From: Sagittula sp. P11
Lineage (GTDB): Bacteria > Pseudomonadota > Alphaproteobacteria > Rhodobacterales > Rhodobacteraceae
Direction: 5' to 3'
Length of the DNA stretch: 64,000 nt
NCBI RefSeq assembly: GCF_002814095.1
Contig: NZ_CP021913.1
Coordinates: 2,576,001-2,640,000, forward strand
Part shown: positions 33,516 through 40,932 of the stretch, piece after piece
Layout: each line of letters opens with the position of its first letter
Position numbering within the stretch: position 1 is the stretch's first letter
The notes under the pieces: model-generated
The model's input: only the letters and a program-made list of their open reading frames with translations
The model's database searches: none
Told to the model about the DNA's origin: nothing
Made by a program: the position numbers and the translations under genes

Positions 33516-33731
33516 TTACCGCATCCTGATCGCTTCGAACAACCGCCGCAAGGCGAAGGACCGAACGATGCTGACCACCGTGAACACCGCGCCCATCTTC
33601 AGGTTCTGGGCCAGCGTCGTGTGCAGCCCGAAGACCGGGAAGATCAGGATCTGCGTTACCACCGCGACGCCGTAACCGACGATCACGTTGGCGACGGCCT
33701 CGACCAGCGACATGAGGCGGGACTGCTTCAT
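33516..33731 (-). CDS. DUF7220-like small membrane protein
   Basis: A 71-residue protein with two hydrophobic helices (ANVIVGYGVAVVTQILIFPVFG and NLKMGAVFTVVSIVRSFAL) and a basic C-terminus, matching the DUF7220 phage protein pattern. Its ATG overlaps (ATGA) the stop of the alternate-frame ORF at 33728, not that of the methyltransferase frame. Confidence 0.78.
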   Translation of the reverse strand: MKQSRLMSLVEAVANVIVGYGVAVVTQILIFPVFGLHTTLAQNLKMGAVFTVVSIVRSFALRRLFEAIRMR

Positions 33732-34918
33732 GCCTCCACCTCATCCATCGGCCAGCAGTTCAGCCGCGAGAGTTCGCAGCGCATGCGCCGCAACCAAGGG
33801 GACCACGCCGTTGCCACAGAGGCGAAGCCGGTCCACCCGGTGGGCCAGCCCATCAGCGCCTCGACGAACAGCGGGTTCAAGGTCCGGCGCGCATCGGAGG
33901 TATCGCCCCCAGCCATCGGCGTCACCAGGACCTGGCGGCCAAGCAGGCCGTTCACCGGGGTGTTCGCCAATGTCGTCGCCCCATCCTTGTGATCCCGCGC
34001 CGTCGGCGTCATCCACATCTGACTGGCATGGGTGAGGTCCGCTGTCCGACGGTTGCCTGCACTCGGCTTGTTGCCGTCCGTTGCCATCGGCGTCGGCCAA
34101 TCCCGCGCCATCCGGTCCAGACCCTTCTCGTCGCGCCTGTCGCCGCCCCGGCTCCGAAAGCAGTCGATCTGCGGCGTCGGCCACAGCGCAGCCGTCGTCG
34201 CGAGGTTCATCCCGTGCTGGCCTGCTTCCTGCGAGGGCGTCGGTTTCGTCTGCCGGTTCTCGTTGGCGCTGGCCCTCGGAGTCGGCCAGAGCCGCAGCAG
34301 TTCCGTCCGGTTCCCGCCACTCGAACGGGTGCCAGAGCAGGCGCGCGGGGTCGGCCACGTCGTCCCCCTCGCGGATGGCGAGGATGAAGAGCCGCTCGCG
34401 CTTGTGGGGCGCGCCGACTTTCGCTGCCGTAAAGAGGCCTGCCGCAAGGCGGTAGCCCATTTCGACCAGTCCTGCGGCGACTTCGGGGAAGCCGAGGCGG
34501 AGATGATGGGCGACATTCTCGAGGAAGACGAAGGGCGGCTCGACCTCGCCGATGATGCGGGCGACATGCGGCCAGAGGTGTCGCGGGTCGTCCGCGCCCC
34601 GGCGCTTGCCTGCGACGGAGAACGGCTGGCACGGATAGCCCGCAGTGATGATGTCCACCGCGCCGCGCCACGGGCGGCCGTCGAAGGTTCCAACGTCGTC
34701 CCAGACAACAGCCCGATCCAGGGACGAGTCTTCCATCCGCGCCACGAGAGTGGCTGCGGCGTAGGTTTCCCGTTCGACATGGCCCACAGTTCGATATCCG
34801 GGCAAGGCGATGGTGAGCCCGAGGTCGAGACCGCCCGCGCCGGAGCAGAGGGAGAGGCCGAACAGGCATGCGTCTCCGGCCCCGGAAGCGCCTCCGGAGG
34901 AAGGTAGAGCCAGGTCAT
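33728..34918 (-). CDS. Overlapping +1-frame ORF with repeated W-P-T-P motifs
   Basis: A 396-codon frame that starts (ATGACC, MTWLYLPPE) four bases after the methyltransferase ATG and stops 13 bases beyond it, in an ATGA overlap with the next gene. It contains LWPTPRAS, LWPTPQID, DWPTPMAT, MWMTPTAR and then LNPLFVEALMGWPTGWT, a pattern I associate with the target-recognition part of phage cytosine methyltransferases. In the C-terminal third its codons end mostly in G or C, more so than the methyltransferase frame. Whether it is a separate protein, the real C-terminal part after a frameshift, or an overprint is unresolved. Confidence 0.4.
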   Translation of the reverse strand: MTWLYLPPEALPGPETHACSASPSAPARAVSTSGSPSPCPDIELWAMSNGKPTPQPLSWRGWKTRPWIGLLSGTTLEPSTAARGAARWTSSLRAIRASRSPSQASAGARTTRDTSGRMSPASSARSSRPSSSSRMSPIISASASPKSPQDWSKWATALRQASLRQRKSARPTSASGSSSSPSARGTTWPTPRACSGTRSSGGNRTELLRLWPTPRASANENRQTKPTPSQEAGQHGMNLATTAALWPTPQIDCFRSRGGDRRDEKGLDRMARDWPTPMATDGNKPSAGNRRTADLTHASQMWMTPTARDHKDGATTLANTPVNGLLGRQVLVTPMAGGDTSDARRTLNPLFVEALMGWPTGWTGFASVATAWSPWLRRMRCELSRLNCWPMDEVEA

Positions 34919-34922
34919 GCAT
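33741..34922 (-). CDS. C5-cytosine DNA methyltransferase
   Basis: A 393-residue protein. Motif I (FGLSLCSGAGGLDLG, residues 21-35), motif IV with catalytic Cys98 (GYPCQPFS), motif VI ENV (135-137), motif VIII RERLFI (175-180) and a motif X-like LCGNGVVPLVAAHAL near the end are all in this frame. It should methylate phage DNA, probably against host restriction. Between motif VIII and X the frame reads repetitive DADG-type sequence with poor third-position GC, while the +1 frame there has strong coding character. The true product may combine the two frames. Confidence 0.82.
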   Translation of the reverse strand: MHDLALPSSGGASGAGDACLFGLSLCSGAGGLDLGLTIALPGYRTVGHVERETYAAATLVARMEDSSLDRAVVWDDVGTFDGRPWRGAVDIITAGYPCQPFSVAGKRRGADDPRHLWPHVARIIGEVEPPFVFLENVAHHLRLGFPEVAAGLVEMGYRLAAGLFTAAKVGAPHKRERLFILAIREGDDVADPARLLWHPFEWREPDGTAAALADSEGQRQREPADETDALAGSRPARDEPRDDGCAVADAADRLLSEPGRRQARREGSGPDGAGLADADGNGRQQAECRQPSDSGPHPCQSDVDDADGAGSQGWGDDIGEHPGERPAWPPGPGDADGWGRYLRCAPDLEPAVRRGADGLAHRVDRLRLCGNGVVPLVAAHALRTLAAELLADG

Positions 34923-34923
34923 G

Positions 34924-36300
34924 TCACGCGGCGGTCTTGCGCTTTCGCGCGGGTTCAGGGGCGGCGTCCGTGTCCGGCGTATCGGCCGTGGGTTCGGCGT
35001 CGTCGCCCAGCCGCTCGGTTTTCACCTCGGCGAAGGTCCGACCATCGCCGTCGAGGATCGCGTCGCGGCCGGTCTCGACCTGCCAGCGTTCGATGGCGAC
35101 GTCGACATAGGCCGGGCTGATCTCCATCGCGAACACACGACGGCCGTTGGCTTCGCCCGCCATGATCTGCGAGCCCGAGCCCGAGAACGGCTCGTAGCAG
35201 AGGCCGCCCCGAGCGACGTGCTGGCGCATCGGGATCCCGAAGGCGTCGAGCGGTTTTGGCGTCGGATGGTCGGGACGGTCGTCCTTGGCGAAGCTCGGCA
35301 GCGCCCATGTCGATGGCAGGGTTTCTTCGGCCACCTTCGGCGGGCGGTTCGGGCGGCGCCAGCCCATGAAGCAGGGCTCGTGCTTCCAGAGGTAGTGGGA
35401 CCGGGTCAGAACCCCGCGGTCCTTCACCCAGATGATCTGTTGGTGGACGAAGGCGCCCGCCTTTTCCCAGCAGGCTTCCAGCATCGCCTGGCGGCGCGAG
35501 GCGTGCCAGCAATACCAGGCGGCATCGTCGGCGATGGCCTCGGCGACCGCCGCAGCGATGAAGCCGTCGTAGAGTTCCGCTCCCTGCGAACTGTCGTCCC
35601 AGGTCGTGCCATAGGATGCGGACCAATCCTTGTTGCGGGTCGGATGGTTCGAGCCATCGTAATCGACGAGATACGGCGGGTCGGTCGCGAACAGGATCGC
35701 CCGCTCGCCATTCATCAGGCGGCGCACATCGGAAACGCTGGTGCTGTCACCGCAGAGCAGACGGTGGTCGCCGAGGATCCAGAGATCGCCAATGCGCGAT
35801 GCCGGGTTGCGCGGTGGCTCGGGGATGGTCACCGGCGGCACGGAGCCCCCGGCGCCACCTTCTTCCCCGTCCCCCTCCGGCAAGAAGGCCAGCAGCTTGT
35901 CCAATTCGCCGTCGGAGAACCCGACCAGCGACAGGTCGAAATCCTCGGCCAGCAGGTCGTTCAGTTCTGCCGACAGCAGCGCCTCGTCCCAGGTGCCGAG
36001 TTCGGTCAGCTTGTTGTCCGCGATGCGGTATGCCCGCCGTTGCGCCTCGGTGAGGTGACCCAGCACGATCACCGGCGCTTCGGTCAGCCCCAGCTGCGTC
36101 GCGGCCAGCACGCGCCCGTGCCCGGCGATCAGTTCGCCGTCCTCGGCGACGAGGCATGGCACCGTCCAGCCGAACTCGGCCATGCTGGCGGCGATCTTGG
36201 CGACCTGGTCCGCGCCATGCCCCTTCGCGTTCTTCGCGTAGGGCTGGAGGCGCGACAGCGGCCAAGTCTCGATCGCGTCCGAGGCGAAGCTCAGCATCAT
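34924..36300 (-). CDS. ParB-like / N6-adenine DNA methyltransferase fusion
   Basis: A 458-residue protein. The N-terminal ~110 residues are a ParB/sulfiredoxin-like domain (RLQPYAKNAKGHG..., LIAGHGRVLAATQLG). The methylase domain follows with the catalytic DPPY (FATDPPYLVDYDG) and C-terminal SAM motif YEPFSGSGSQIMAGE, an order typical of beta-class enzymes. The start is placed at ATG 36300; the frame is open to 36420 but that part is not conserved in character. Its stop is one base before the cytosine methyltransferase ATG. Confidence 0.9.
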   Translation of the reverse strand: MMLSFASDAIETWPLSRLQPYAKNAKGHGADQVAKIAASMAEFGWTVPCLVAEDGELIAGHGRVLAATQLGLTEAPVIVLGHLTEAQRRAYRIADNKLTELGTWDEALLSAELNDLLAEDFDLSLVGFSDGELDKLLAFLPEGDGEEGGAGGSVPPVTIPEPPRNPASRIGDLWILGDHRLLCGDSTSVSDVRRLMNGERAILFATDPPYLVDYDGSNHPTRNKDWSASYGTTWDDSSQGAELYDGFIAAAVAEAIADDAAWYCWHASRRQAMLEACWEKAGAFVHQQIIWVKDRGVLTRSHYLWKHEPCFMGWRRPNRPPKVAEETLPSTWALPSFAKDDRPDHPTPKPLDAFGIPMRQHVARGGLCYEPFSGSGSQIMAGEANGRRVFAMEISPAYVDVAIERWQVETGRDAILDGDGRTFAEVKTERLGDDAEPTADTPDTDAAPEPARKRKTAA

Positions 36301-36716
36301 GGTGGGCAAGGTTCCTCGGTCGGGTGGATACCGGTGGCTTCCGGACTCCGGATGCCGGGCTGGACTCCACACGGGGTCCAGCGGCAACCAGCGGTGTCCG
36401 GTCGTAAGGCCAGCGTTCATTGGTGTTTGCGCGGGGCGCGCGTGGGTCCGGCTTCCGGGTGGCTTCCCAAAAATCCGGCCCTGTCGCTGGCGATGTTCCG
36501 CGCTTCGCCCGCCAGCATACGAAAACGCCCAGGAAGGAACCGGAAACTGCCATGGGGTGGACCCCGGCCGGACCCTCGCCGGATGCCGGGGTCCAGAAGG
36601 TCCCCGTCAACGCAAAGGGGAGAGCGAGCTTTCCAGCGCACTCTCCCCATCTTGCCTTCGGAATAGCATGGATCTGTTGCAGATGTCGAAGGAAAAAGTG
36701 TTGCAACACATTGGAG
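36301..36716. other. Non-coding stretch with one hairpin
   Basis: About 0.4 kb in front of the methyltransferase genes. I see no convincing gene. GGGGAGAG (36617-36624) pairs with CTCTCCCC (36641-36648); read leftward it is followed by TTTGCGTT, so it may end transcription of the DUF6362 gene. The remainder probably carries the methyltransferase promoter. Confidence 0.5.
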
Positions 36717-38166: not shown

Positions 38167-40168
38167 TCAGGCCTCACTCATATGAGTTAGGTCGTCCTCG
38201 AGCCCCTCCGGGTAGACCCAGACGGCGGGGTTTTCGACCTGCAGGCAGAGCCCGGATTGGGGGCACTTGAAGTGGCTGGGCAGGACCGGACGGGCGCTTG
38301 TGGCGACCTCGCCGGTGTCCGGATCGACCTCCTCGACGGGCGCGCCGAACTGCATGCCCTCGACGCAAAGGTAGCCGAACCGCGACCGGGTGACGGGGAA
38401 GCCGAACCCCGAGGGGTCGCGCAGGAACTTCACGAAGCCCTTGGTCGCCAGCACGCTGAGGCGCTCGCGGATCGTGTGCTTGCTGCCCAGACCTCCCCGG
38501 TTCTCGAAGGTCTCGGCGAACTGCATGGCGGTGTAGAGGCGCTCGCTCGCAGCCTCATCCAGCAGCATGCCGAGGATGACATCGTGCTTGCGCAGCCGTT
38601 CGGCATCGAGCTTGGCGCCGACCTCCTTGCGCACCAGGCGCTCGTTCAGCGGGTTCAACTCGACCCACTCGCCCTTCACCTTGTCGATCAGCTTGCCGGG
38701 CAGCGCGGGGCCGTTCCGAAGCTCGATCTCCAGCCTGCGGACACTGCTGTCCTCGTCGGGCCGGCGCATGAGCAGCCCCGAGGTGTAGAAGCCGCGCAGC
38801 GCGCTGGCGCCGGAGAGCGCGAGGAAGGGATCGTCCTTGACCTGATGCTTGCTGGCCTTGCGGGTATGGTGGGCGAGGATGACGCCCGCGTCCGGATTGA
38901 CCGCCTCGCGCAGGAGCTCGACCCGGTCCTTCAGGAAGAACATCATGGCGCTGTTGTCGTTTTCGCCGCCGCCCTCGGGGCCACCGTCGAAGAGGTTGCG
39001 GATCGGGTCGATGACGATGATGTCGGGCGGCGCGTTGGAGAATGCGGCCCGGATTGCCTCGGCCACGCGGGCGACACCCTCCGCGTCGAGCAGCAGCTTC
39101 AGTTTCGGCGTGGCGACGAAGGTGTCGCGCGCGGCGGCGATCACGGTGGCGGGCAGCGCGATCTGCTGCATGCGCTCGCGCAGGTAGTGATACTGGATCT
39201 CGGCTTGAAGGTAGAACACGCGCAGCGGCCGGGGCGGCGTGAAGCCGAGGAACGGCACGCCAGCCCGCGAAGGGGTCGAGGCGGCCCTCGTGGACGAGGC
39301 GTACGTAATGGCCGATGGCGGCGCTGGCCCCCTGGAAGCGGGACCAGTCATCAACCGCGCCCTCGCGCACCGGCGTTGTGAGCACAGCGTCGATGCCGGG
39401 CTTCGCGGTCGGCGCGGCAACATCGCTGGCGAAGCCCACGCCGGGCAGCGGCGGCATCTCTGCGACCTTTTCGGCGAAATCCGAAAGATCCAGCTCGACG
39501 TCGCGATGCTCGCGGATCTGCACGAGGCGTTGATGGCCGTGCTTGTGATAGACCGTGCCGGGCACCCGGATCGGCTGGTGCGCCGAGCGGAAATGCGTGT
39601 CGCCGCCGACCTTCACGGCGATCTCACCGCGCAGGCGGCAGAGGGTGGCCAGATCCTCACCTTCGACGGGTTCGGTCAGTTTCCACCAGACATGGAGCTT
39701 GGCCGCGCCCTCTGGCGTGCGCCCGCCGCTTTCGATGATGAGGGTCGGCGCGCCGAGGTGGCGGGTGACATGGTCCAGCTTGGCCGGGATATCGCCTGCG
39801 TCGAGATCGACGACGATAGCCTGCATCTGCAGCACATCGGCGGCGCGGGCCTGACCCTGCTCGGCGACGGTGCCGGGGATGACATAGACGGCGGCGCCCT
39901 CGCGGTTCGCCCATCCGGCGAAGGTTGCGAGTTTCTCGGGCGCAGTGTCGTCGGCCGGGATCCAGATGTTGTGCGGCTTGCCGTCTCGGCCCTGACCCTT
40001 GTCGACGAAGCCGCGGAGCGGGATCAGCCCCTCGCACCAGCTGAACACGGTGTCGAGGAAGACGGCGATCTGCTCGGGGTCGGGGTCGCAGCCGAAGGGG
40101 TTCTCGGACGGTGGCCCGTCGTTGAAGTCCATCCACGGGTTGAAGTGCAGGATGCCGTCGTCGCTCAT
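38167..40168 (-). pseudogene. Primase/RepA-type ATPase broken by a frameshifting deletion
   Basis: From ATG 40168 the frame encodes MSDDGILHFNPW... and a primase-like domain (HVWWKLTEPVEGEDLATLCRLRGE, HFRSAHQPIRVPGTVY) as far as GRLDPFAGW near 39260. ATPase homology then resumes in a different frame with VPFLGFTPPRPLRVFYLQAE, Walker B (DIIVIDPIRNLFDG) and VILAHHTRKASKH, and ends at 38167. No Walker A P-loop exists in either frame at the joint, so part of the gene has been lost. The product cannot be a working helicase loader or RepA-type helicase. Confidence 0.75.
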
Positions 40169-40932
40169 GCGGGAAGCCTCCAGCAGCGCTCGGACCACGG
40201 GCAGAAGCGGCATTCGAAGAAGTCGGGCGTGGTGGCGACGCGCGGCAGAAGCTCGGCCGCGTCGGTCGCCTGCAGGATCCGCACGCCCCGGTCGGACATG
40301 CGCTGCGCGAGATCGGCGTCGAAGGGCACCAGTTCGTGGTGCATCTCGGCCGTGTCCTTGTTGATCGCGGTAAACACGGCGGGCGCGGCCGAGATGCCGG
40401 GGACCGTCCCTTCCATGTAGGCTTGATAGACCGCGATCTGCGCGGCGTAGACCGGCTTCGACTTGGTCACGCCATCCTTGACGCAGGCCCGCCAGTTCTT
40501 GGCGTTCATCGTCTTGCATTCCCAGAGCGCGGGAACGGCAAGCCCGAAGCCCTCAGGGCCCGCGGCGACGATGCCATCGACATGGCCCCGGATGCGCCCG
40601 CCCGCGACCGAGAAGCCGAACTGGCCGCCATCGGGCCGGTTGCCCTTCCGGGTGTATAGATCGAAGCCCGCGCCGCGCAGCCAGGCGACCGCCAGATCCT
40701 CGAGCGCATGGCCGATGGCGAAGATCCGCAGCGACTGGCCGCTGAAATCCTGGCCCTCGTCCTTCGGCGTCGCCGTAAACTCGAACTGCAGGGCCCGCTC
40801 GCAGGCATGGCCGAGGCGGGATCCGCCCAAGTAGTCGCGGGGCGGCCGCGTGGCCTGATCGGCGGTGAGCGCCTGATCGACGGTGGCGTTCACCCGGTCG
40901 GCGAAGCTGGGGCGGCGGTTATAGTCCAGCAT
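40165..40932 (-). CDS. PD-(D/E)XK exonuclease with Fe-S cysteines (Cas4/RecB-like)
   Basis: A 255-residue nuclease. His75-Glu78 (IGHALED), Asp119 (GHVDG), Glu138 and Lys140 (LWECK) and a downstream QIAVYQAYM helix outline the RecB-type site. Cys44 together with Cys241, Cys244 and Cys250 matches the four-cysteine iron-sulfur arrangement of Cas4/AddB-type nucleases. It probably resects DNA ends for the Sak4-like annealing system. ATG 40932 has GGAGG upstream; the end overlaps the next gene by four bases. Confidence 0.82.
   Translation of the reverse strand: MLDYNRRPSFADRVNATVDQALTADQATRPPRDYLGGSRLGHACERALQFEFTATPKDEGQDFSGQSLRIFAIGHALEDLAVAWLRGAGFDLYTRKGNRPDGGQFGFSVAGGRIRGHVDGIVAAGPEGFGLAVPALWECKTMNAKNWRACVKDGVTKSKPVYAAQIAVYQAYMEGTVPGISAAPAVFTAINKDTAEMHHELVPFDADLAQRMSDRGVRILQATDAAELLPRVATTPDFFECRFCPWSERCWRLPA

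Follow-up and report, generated by a model that had tools for sequence, protein, structure and literature searches.

M.EcoHK31I is a C5-cytosine DNA methyltransferase in which the gene for the small polypeptide lies inside that for the large one, in another reading frame, and M.EaeI is a further enzyme akin to it. According to passages of PMC3404938, M.EcoHK31I and M.AquI are natural two-polypeptide C5-methyltransferases, and the larger polypeptide of M.EcoHK31I holds motifs I-VIII, motif X and the predicted target-recognition domain, while the smaller one holds motif IX only; PMC3439449 calls M.EcoHK31I 'naturally split', and PMC4722110 gives the site of M.EaeI. Here we describe a locus of related design in the 5.58 Mb genome of Sagittula sp. 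P11, within a window of 64,000 nucleotides (nt) that is the whole stretch of DNA analysed (contig NZ_CP021913.1, positions 2,576,001 to 2,640,000). Two open reading frames (ORFs), alpha (the Dcm frame) and beta (the +1 frame of alpha), overlap there on the same strand by 1178 nt, and the locus probably encodes, by this end-to-end overlap, a two-subunit prophage C5-cytosine DNA methyltransferase, a reading to which the sequence comparisons lead us to give a probability of about 0.86.

The locus resembles M.EcoHK31I in having an alpha chain with motifs I-VIII and X and a beta chain with motif IX, and in placing beta over alpha in another reading frame. It differs in that beta is as long as alpha and starts only 4 nt later, in that full-length beta has a selected N-terminus of its own, and in that the target-recognition domain is under selection in beta, whereas passages of PMC3404938 place the predicted one in the larger subunit of M.EcoHK31I. 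Because the locus is like M.EcoHK31I in its presumed working but has the target-recognition domain in beta and a selected beta N-terminus, it is best regarded as a variant of the M.EcoHK31I kind rather than a proven member, the likeness being drawn from the published description. M.AquI is cut differently, inside the variable region, its second chain carrying both motif IX and motif X, whereas motif X lies here in the alpha frame. The single-frame phage Dcm enzymes with LLPTP repeats (IrishSherpFalk gp71, prophiGD91-2 gp27 and Babsiella gp54) have the same segments in the same order; in these Mycobacterium phage enzymes they are read as one chain from one frame, as opposed to the two frames used here. 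No title or abstract opening among the open-licence papers listed for BsuMI ydiO/ydiP or for overlapping methyltransferase genes describes this overlap in phages.

Selection alternates between the two frames

Both ORFs are open, as a preliminary description of this DNA had claimed (coordinates are in Table 2); extended to an upstream GTG, beta spans 33728-34927 (399 residues). The significance of the +1 frame comes from its homologues, because a single sequence is uninformative (P about 0.2): the open +1 frame survives 20-23% of synonymous shuffles of the Dcm codons, and such shuffling over codons 12-190 yields only 0.5 beta stops per sequence.

Searches of IMG/VR gave 282 beta-related and 360 alpha-related stretches, the best 80 of each being used (amino-acid identity 81-91% for beta and 82-88% for alpha, nearly all full length), and the best 80 of 286 named-genome loci were added. 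An ungapped set was formed by 90 of the 101 distinct IMG/VR-plus-window sequences, the rest being of other length or having no aligned alpha start codon. The ratio of non-synonymous to synonymous substitution (omega) was obtained for each frame by a Poisson fit to 4985 parsimony changes in 87 of these 90, after one sequence with a beta stop (L065) and two near-copies were dropped. The fit was repeated with 70 of the 80 named-genome loci, ten being non-collinear or too short; this set is partly dependent on the first because the IMG/VR contigs share some of their content with the GTDB genomes.

In a +1 overlap the third codon position of alpha is the second of beta, and the first of alpha is the third of beta. 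Over codons 11-190 of the 90 ungapped sequences the alpha third position is the most variable along most of the stretch, and this order flips at codon 191 and again from codon 361; within codons 191-330, diversity per ten codons is 0.13-0.36 at the alpha first position and 0.002-0.118 at the alpha third. The preliminary description had noted by eye a switch of codon preference from the Dcm to the +1 frame after two thirds of the gene. Third-position GC content of the Dcm frame does switch, from 0.71-0.85 in the first half to 0.58-0.66 in the second, where first-position GC, which is the third position of the +1 frame, reaches 0.82-0.87; judged by substitutions, the change lies near codon 191, that is, half way and not two thirds along.

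Constraint falls mainly on the alpha frame in codons 23-190 and 361-392, on the beta frame alone in codons 211-330, and on both in codons 43-62, 148-162 and 346-360 (Table 1). The same alternating picture was obtained with the 70 named-genome loci, and the same alternation of variable positions is seen in a Roseicitreum-type clade of 14 sequences. As a control, the upstream methylase gene (42 distinct of 52 collinear sequences) gave +1 omega values of 0.93-1.47 and 10.7 +1 stops per sequence.

Table 1. Omega in each frame along the overlap (87 homologues; values from the 70 named-genome loci under Remarks)
Codons	Alpha	Beta	Remarks
2-10	0.63	0.15	
11-22	0.47	0.76	
23-42	0.14	0.88	
43-62	0.19	0.26	70 loci: 0.19/0.27
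63-80	0.31	0.50	
81-110	0.12	0.81	
111-147	0.09	0.77	95% limits far apart
148-162	0.41	0.33	70 loci: 0.46/0.38
163-190	0.11	0.82	
191-210	0.57	0.11	
211-260	1.15	0.07	95% limits far apart
261-300	1.07	0.13	
301-330	0.86	0.05	
331-345	0.39	0.64	
346-360	0.27	0.04	motif IX
361-380	0.01	0.50	motif X; 95% limits far apart
381-392	0.16	0.61	

Stop avoidance and conserved starts

Each frame also avoids stops where the other is constrained. If stops were ordinary changes, about 149 stop gains would be expected in the alpha frame over codons 191-345 and about 97 in the beta frame over codons 11-190, and they are carried by 0 of 90 and 1 of 90 tips, respectively; shuffling codons 195-350 synonymously for beta places a mean of 3.1 stops per sequence in alpha. 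Regular interruption of the +1 frame among homologues, which had been named beforehand as the case that would speak against a role for that frame, did not emerge when it was looked for: a beta stop occurs in 1 of the 90 ungapped sequences and in 2 of the 80 named-genome loci, and in one locus (L202) beta is open up to codon 396.

The two genes begin at a double start, ATGNATG with a variable N, in which both start codons are kept in 79 of the 80 named-genome loci, and the beta ATG is present in all 90 ungapped sequences. The stop codon of the upstream methylase gene (TGA) sits one base ahead of the alpha ATG, and a TGA, in any frame, lies within 12 nt upstream of the alpha start or overlaps it in 78 of the 80 loci. 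Of 88 rows of Synechococcus and Roseicitreum type, 61 have a recognised beta start; in at least 43 of these an alpha-frame start codon stands 4 bases ahead of it, and the double start there often reads (A/G/T)TGAATG. At the other end, the beta stop (33728-33730) and the ATG start of the following gene (33516-33731) overlap as ATGA, in agreement with the preliminary description; the beta stop reads ATGA in 71 of the 80 named-genome loci, a count of the letters at the stop only and not of the next gene.

Probable complementary parts of one enzyme fold

The alpha chain matches PF00145 (E=4.7e-34) over residues 23-205 and, in PHROG, phrog_363. It has the C5-cytosine methyltransferase motifs I, IV (PCQ), VI (ENV), VIII and X (motif names on both chains follow the usual conventions), with invariant columns and an aligned motif X. 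It is without motif IX and without a constrained target-recognition region, both of which lie in the +1 frame, so the locus appears from these matches to belong to the PF00145 C5-cytosine DNA methyltransferases as a two-chain enzyme only. The beta chain matches phrog_1008 (E=1.8e-19), a family labelled 'DNA methyltransferase' that also weakly matches the motif X end of alpha (E 0.0083); searches with beta gave no match in Pfam or NCBIfam and, among PDB sequences, a single match at E 0.87. The five WPTP-like repeats previously noticed in the +1 frame are four exact WPTP and one WMTP, and they are accompanied by LNPLFVEALMGWPTGWT.

An AlphaFold2 model of alpha has a mean predicted local distance difference test score (pLDDT) of 64 and a predicted template modelling score of 0.57. 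Its catalytic domain scores mostly 77-97 per ten residues, with one block at 58, and the motif X helix is confident, while residues 200-322 fall below 50; the model's nearest neighbours among solved structures, M.HaeIII and M.HhaI, match it along about 171 columns.

In Mycobacterium phages, single-frame Dcm enzymes have a single chain on which motifs I-VIII are followed by LLPTP repeats, by motif IX (A.F.EWMMGWP.GW) and by motif X (LRI.GNGV.P). Along IrishSherpFalk gp71, residues 5-169 align to alpha 24-194, residues 198-282 to beta 188-289 in 396-residue numbering (by profile, E 2.7e-12), residues 337-353 to beta 347-363 at motif IX (12 of 17 identical), and residues 361-390 to alpha 362-391 at motif X. 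The earlier assignment of the WPTP and LNP..MGWP part to target recognition by a cytosine methyltransferase is upheld. The segment order alpha-beta-beta-alpha is collinear with the single-frame enzyme, and the locus is therefore likely to be a split C5-cytosine methyltransferase.

Proposed working and alternative explanations

Two frames with alternating selection, stop avoidance, collinearity with single-frame enzymes and conservation across clades are observed; from them we infer the translation of both frames, the re-initiation route, heterodimer formation, activity and a protective role. Ribosomes leaving the upstream methylase gene would probably re-initiate at either ATG of ATGCATG and so make alpha or beta. 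Alpha would supply the catalytic domain (motifs I-VIII), which binds S-adenosylmethionine, and the motif X helix, with about 130 residues of unconstrained filler between them; beta would supply the WPTP-repeat target-recognition region and motif IX behind an N-terminal half that is largely filler but keeps a few conserved segments. By pairing, the two chains may restore the fold for which single-frame relatives need just one polypeptide. The paired enzyme would methylate the DNA of phage or host, and its most likely role is that of an orphan enzyme that shields the phage from restriction.

A simpler account, that alpha alone is real and that high GC and Dcm composition leave the +1 frame open as a side effect, gains some credit from the shuffles described above, in which an open +1 frame is not improbable for one sequence and beta stops are few over codons 12-190. 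It is nonetheless very improbable, since across homologues codons 211-330 have an omega near 1 in the alpha frame and near 0.1 in the beta frame, the layout is kept at 35-45% GC, and the control gene has nothing alike; a spurious beta ORF was rejected on per-frame omega, stop avoidance, conserved starts and this control. The preliminary description had left a choice between two proteins sharing the DNA and a frameshift pair, programmed or mutational. A programmed or suppressed frameshift that joined the catalytic part of alpha to the recognition part of beta, with the other ORF ends incidental, would match the change of constrained frame near codon 191 and its return near codons 345-361, as a +1 and then a -1 shift. 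However, it requires two precise opposite shifts and leaves unexplained the beta-frame selection at codons 2-10 (omega 0.15), 43-62 and 148-162, the conserved beta start in ATGNATG, and the missing stops in alpha (codons 191-345) and beta (codons 11-190). In a programmed frameshift the shifted frame would be selected only past the shift site and would lack a start of its own; here it is selected ahead of that site and has its own start. The two-protein reading, along the whole length, is thus the part of that choice that stands, because the N-terminus of beta is selected, both starts are kept and both frames are stop-free, none of which a fusion needs; a frameshift pair is unneeded, poorly supported and unlikely. 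Two independent proteins with unrelated functions, beta being no methyltransferase subunit, would fit the lack of Pfam and NCBIfam matches to beta, its poor AlphaFold2 model, and the dual-constrained N-terminal beta segments that have no counterpart in the alignment to single-frame enzymes. This too is improbable: the WPTP region and motif IX of beta align to the single-frame Dcm exactly in the gap left by alpha, and alpha alone has neither motif IX nor a constrained recognition region.

Several results weigh against a two-subunit enzyme encoded end to end. The model of beta alone is of low confidence (mean pLDDT 43), and the alignments of motifs IX and X come from pairwise BLASTP, the profile comparison stopping short of both. 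Omega in the beta frame is 0.76-0.88 in codons 11-42, 81-147 and 163-190, and therefore most of the N-terminal half of beta is weakly constrained. In the reconstruction, 21 ancestral changes make or remove a stop in either frame, 11 of them within codons 381-392, and all 21 were excluded from the omega fit. Internal stops occur in one window-type IMG/VR contig (L065/L133), in beta, and in the named-genome loci, twice in alpha and twice in beta; in two IMG/VR loci (L054 and L157) the first codons, extrapolated from the alignment, include a stop in the alpha frame, and one named-genome locus (L245) has a non-homologous 5' end. Shine-Dalgarno-like tetramers lie upstream in only 19 of the 80 named-genome loci, and the codon-position profile of Lactobacillus-type loci, from ten sequences only, does not resolve the frame alternation.

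Genomic setting

The pair lies among phage genes, with a terminase, a RuvC-like resolvase, a helicase, a Cas4-like exonuclease and a Sak4-like annealing protein close by, and a Shinella plasmid carries a DNA match (88.7% over 79% of the query). In another locus of the same genus (L165), beta residues 3-116 are matched in a 128-residue open frame, apparently a truncated remnant. Elsewhere on the minus strand of the window, a 418-residue ORF at 38167-39423, similar to a primase/helicase family over the family's C-terminal half, overlaps a 654-residue ORF at 38555-40519 in another frame, and no PHROG match was found for the latter.

Table 2. Features of the locus and its neighbours in window coordinates
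Feature	Position	Strand	Detail
Upstream gene, ParB-like domain and N6/N4 methylase	34924-36420	minus	stop TGA 34924-34926
Double start ATGCATG	34916-34922	minus	alpha ATG 34920-34922, beta ATG 34916-34918
Alpha, probable C5-cytosine methyltransferase subunit (Dcm frame; motifs I-VIII and X)	33741-34922	minus	393 residues, ATG start
Beta, probable +1-frame subunit (WPTP-repeat target-recognition region and motif IX)	33728-34918	minus	396 residues, ATG at 34918
Catalytic domain, motifs I-VIII (alpha codons 20-190)	34353-34865	minus	per-frame omega, pLDDT
Dual-constrained segment, codons 43-62	34737-34796	minus	omega in both frames
Dual-constrained segment, codons 148-162	34437-34481	minus	omega in both frames
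Codons 191-330, WPTP target-recognition region in beta frame, stop-free spacer in alpha frame	33933-34352	minus	
Motif IX LNPLFVEALMGWPTGWT (beta frame)	33830-33880	minus	12/17 identical to IrishSherpFalk Dcm motif IX
Motif X, alpha codons 361-392 (alpha frame)	33747-33842	minus	omega alpha 0.01 over 361-380
Downstream DUF7220 gene	33516-33731	minus	PF23858 E=3.4e-35; ATG overlaps beta stop

Distribution across phages

Beta lies in the +1 frame of alpha, and motif X in the alpha frame, in 74 of 79 Synechococcus-type, 14 of 17 Roseicitreum-type and 68 of 80 short-beta loci, many of the exceptions being misses of the regular-expression motif pattern, and this layout persists at a GC content as low as 0.35. 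The low-GC Lactobacillus-type segments begin at the last stop upstream of beta, so the openness of beta is there by construction and their weight rests only on overlap length and the openness of alpha.

Among all 568 loci that have a catalytic domain, 472 (333 distinct catalytic-domain sequences) have motif IX in the +1 frame and motif X in the catalytic frame, with an intervening stop in five; the remainder comprise 46 single-frame loci, 17 in which +1 holds motif X as well as motif IX, 28 unclassified and 5 others. These loci include repeats of one contig, and their counts are not natural frequencies because the loci were collected for their resemblance to alpha or beta. In an unrooted catalytic-domain tree of 97 rows, a branch separates the 66 split rows from the others; the tree comes from a quick search in which 33 of 93 inner branches are weak, and its single-frame rows are all from one scan.

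An M.AquI-like cut, in which motif X joins motif IX in the +1 frame, was given by the motif pattern for 17 loci in one set of 80 (L523, L525-L527, L529, L538, L542, L544-L547, L549-L551, L554, L555 and L566). In six further loci (L363, L382, L425, L426, L446 and L476) motif IX or X apparently either changes frame or lies far downstream, which suggests a partition between frames that can shift. Two pairs of loci (L332 with L065, and L394 with L064) share an IMG isolate number and fall in different split-methyltransferase clades; therefore, one bacterial genome may hold two types.

The pair is recorded unevenly. Both overlapping genes of Paenibacillus phage Arcticfreeze are annotated, gp56 and gp57, with phrog_363 and phrog_1008 as their respective best matches. 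Klebsiella phage PIN2 and Tunturiibacter phage Tunturi_1 list beta as 'DNA methyltransferase' and leave alpha unlisted, only beta is annotated in Synechococcus phage Ssp-JY39, and Acinetobacter phage ABMM1 lists alpha and not beta. The named phage records that annotate a single one of the overlapping subunits include loci L486 (1082-2143), L487 (1094-2065) and L491 (1492-2406). PHROG labels both phrog_363 and phrog_1008 'DNA methyltransferase', with no link drawn there between them as frame-overlapping partners.

We lean, with some reserve, towards the view that such loci form an ancient and widespread tailed-phage class of reciprocally frame-split genes, in which both subunits would be encoded end to end, each with its segments over the neutral, stop-free filler of the other, the double start would set their supply ratio, and several records would name one subunit of the two.

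Implications

Long same-strand overlaps in the genomes of bacteria and double-stranded DNA phages are easily written off as annotation noise. Here an overlap is kept end to end in alphaproteobacterial prophages, and phages of Synechococcus, Paenibacillus and Lactobacillus have related forms of it; its logic is readable, in that it would place two complementary halves of an enzyme on one stretch of DNA. Where annotation retains a single ORF of an overlapping pair, a catalytic or a recognition subunit would be lost, and, if the proposed division of labour is true, methylation specificity would not be predictable from alpha alone. The pair may serve as a natural system for the study of overprinting, re-initiation and subunit co-evolution.

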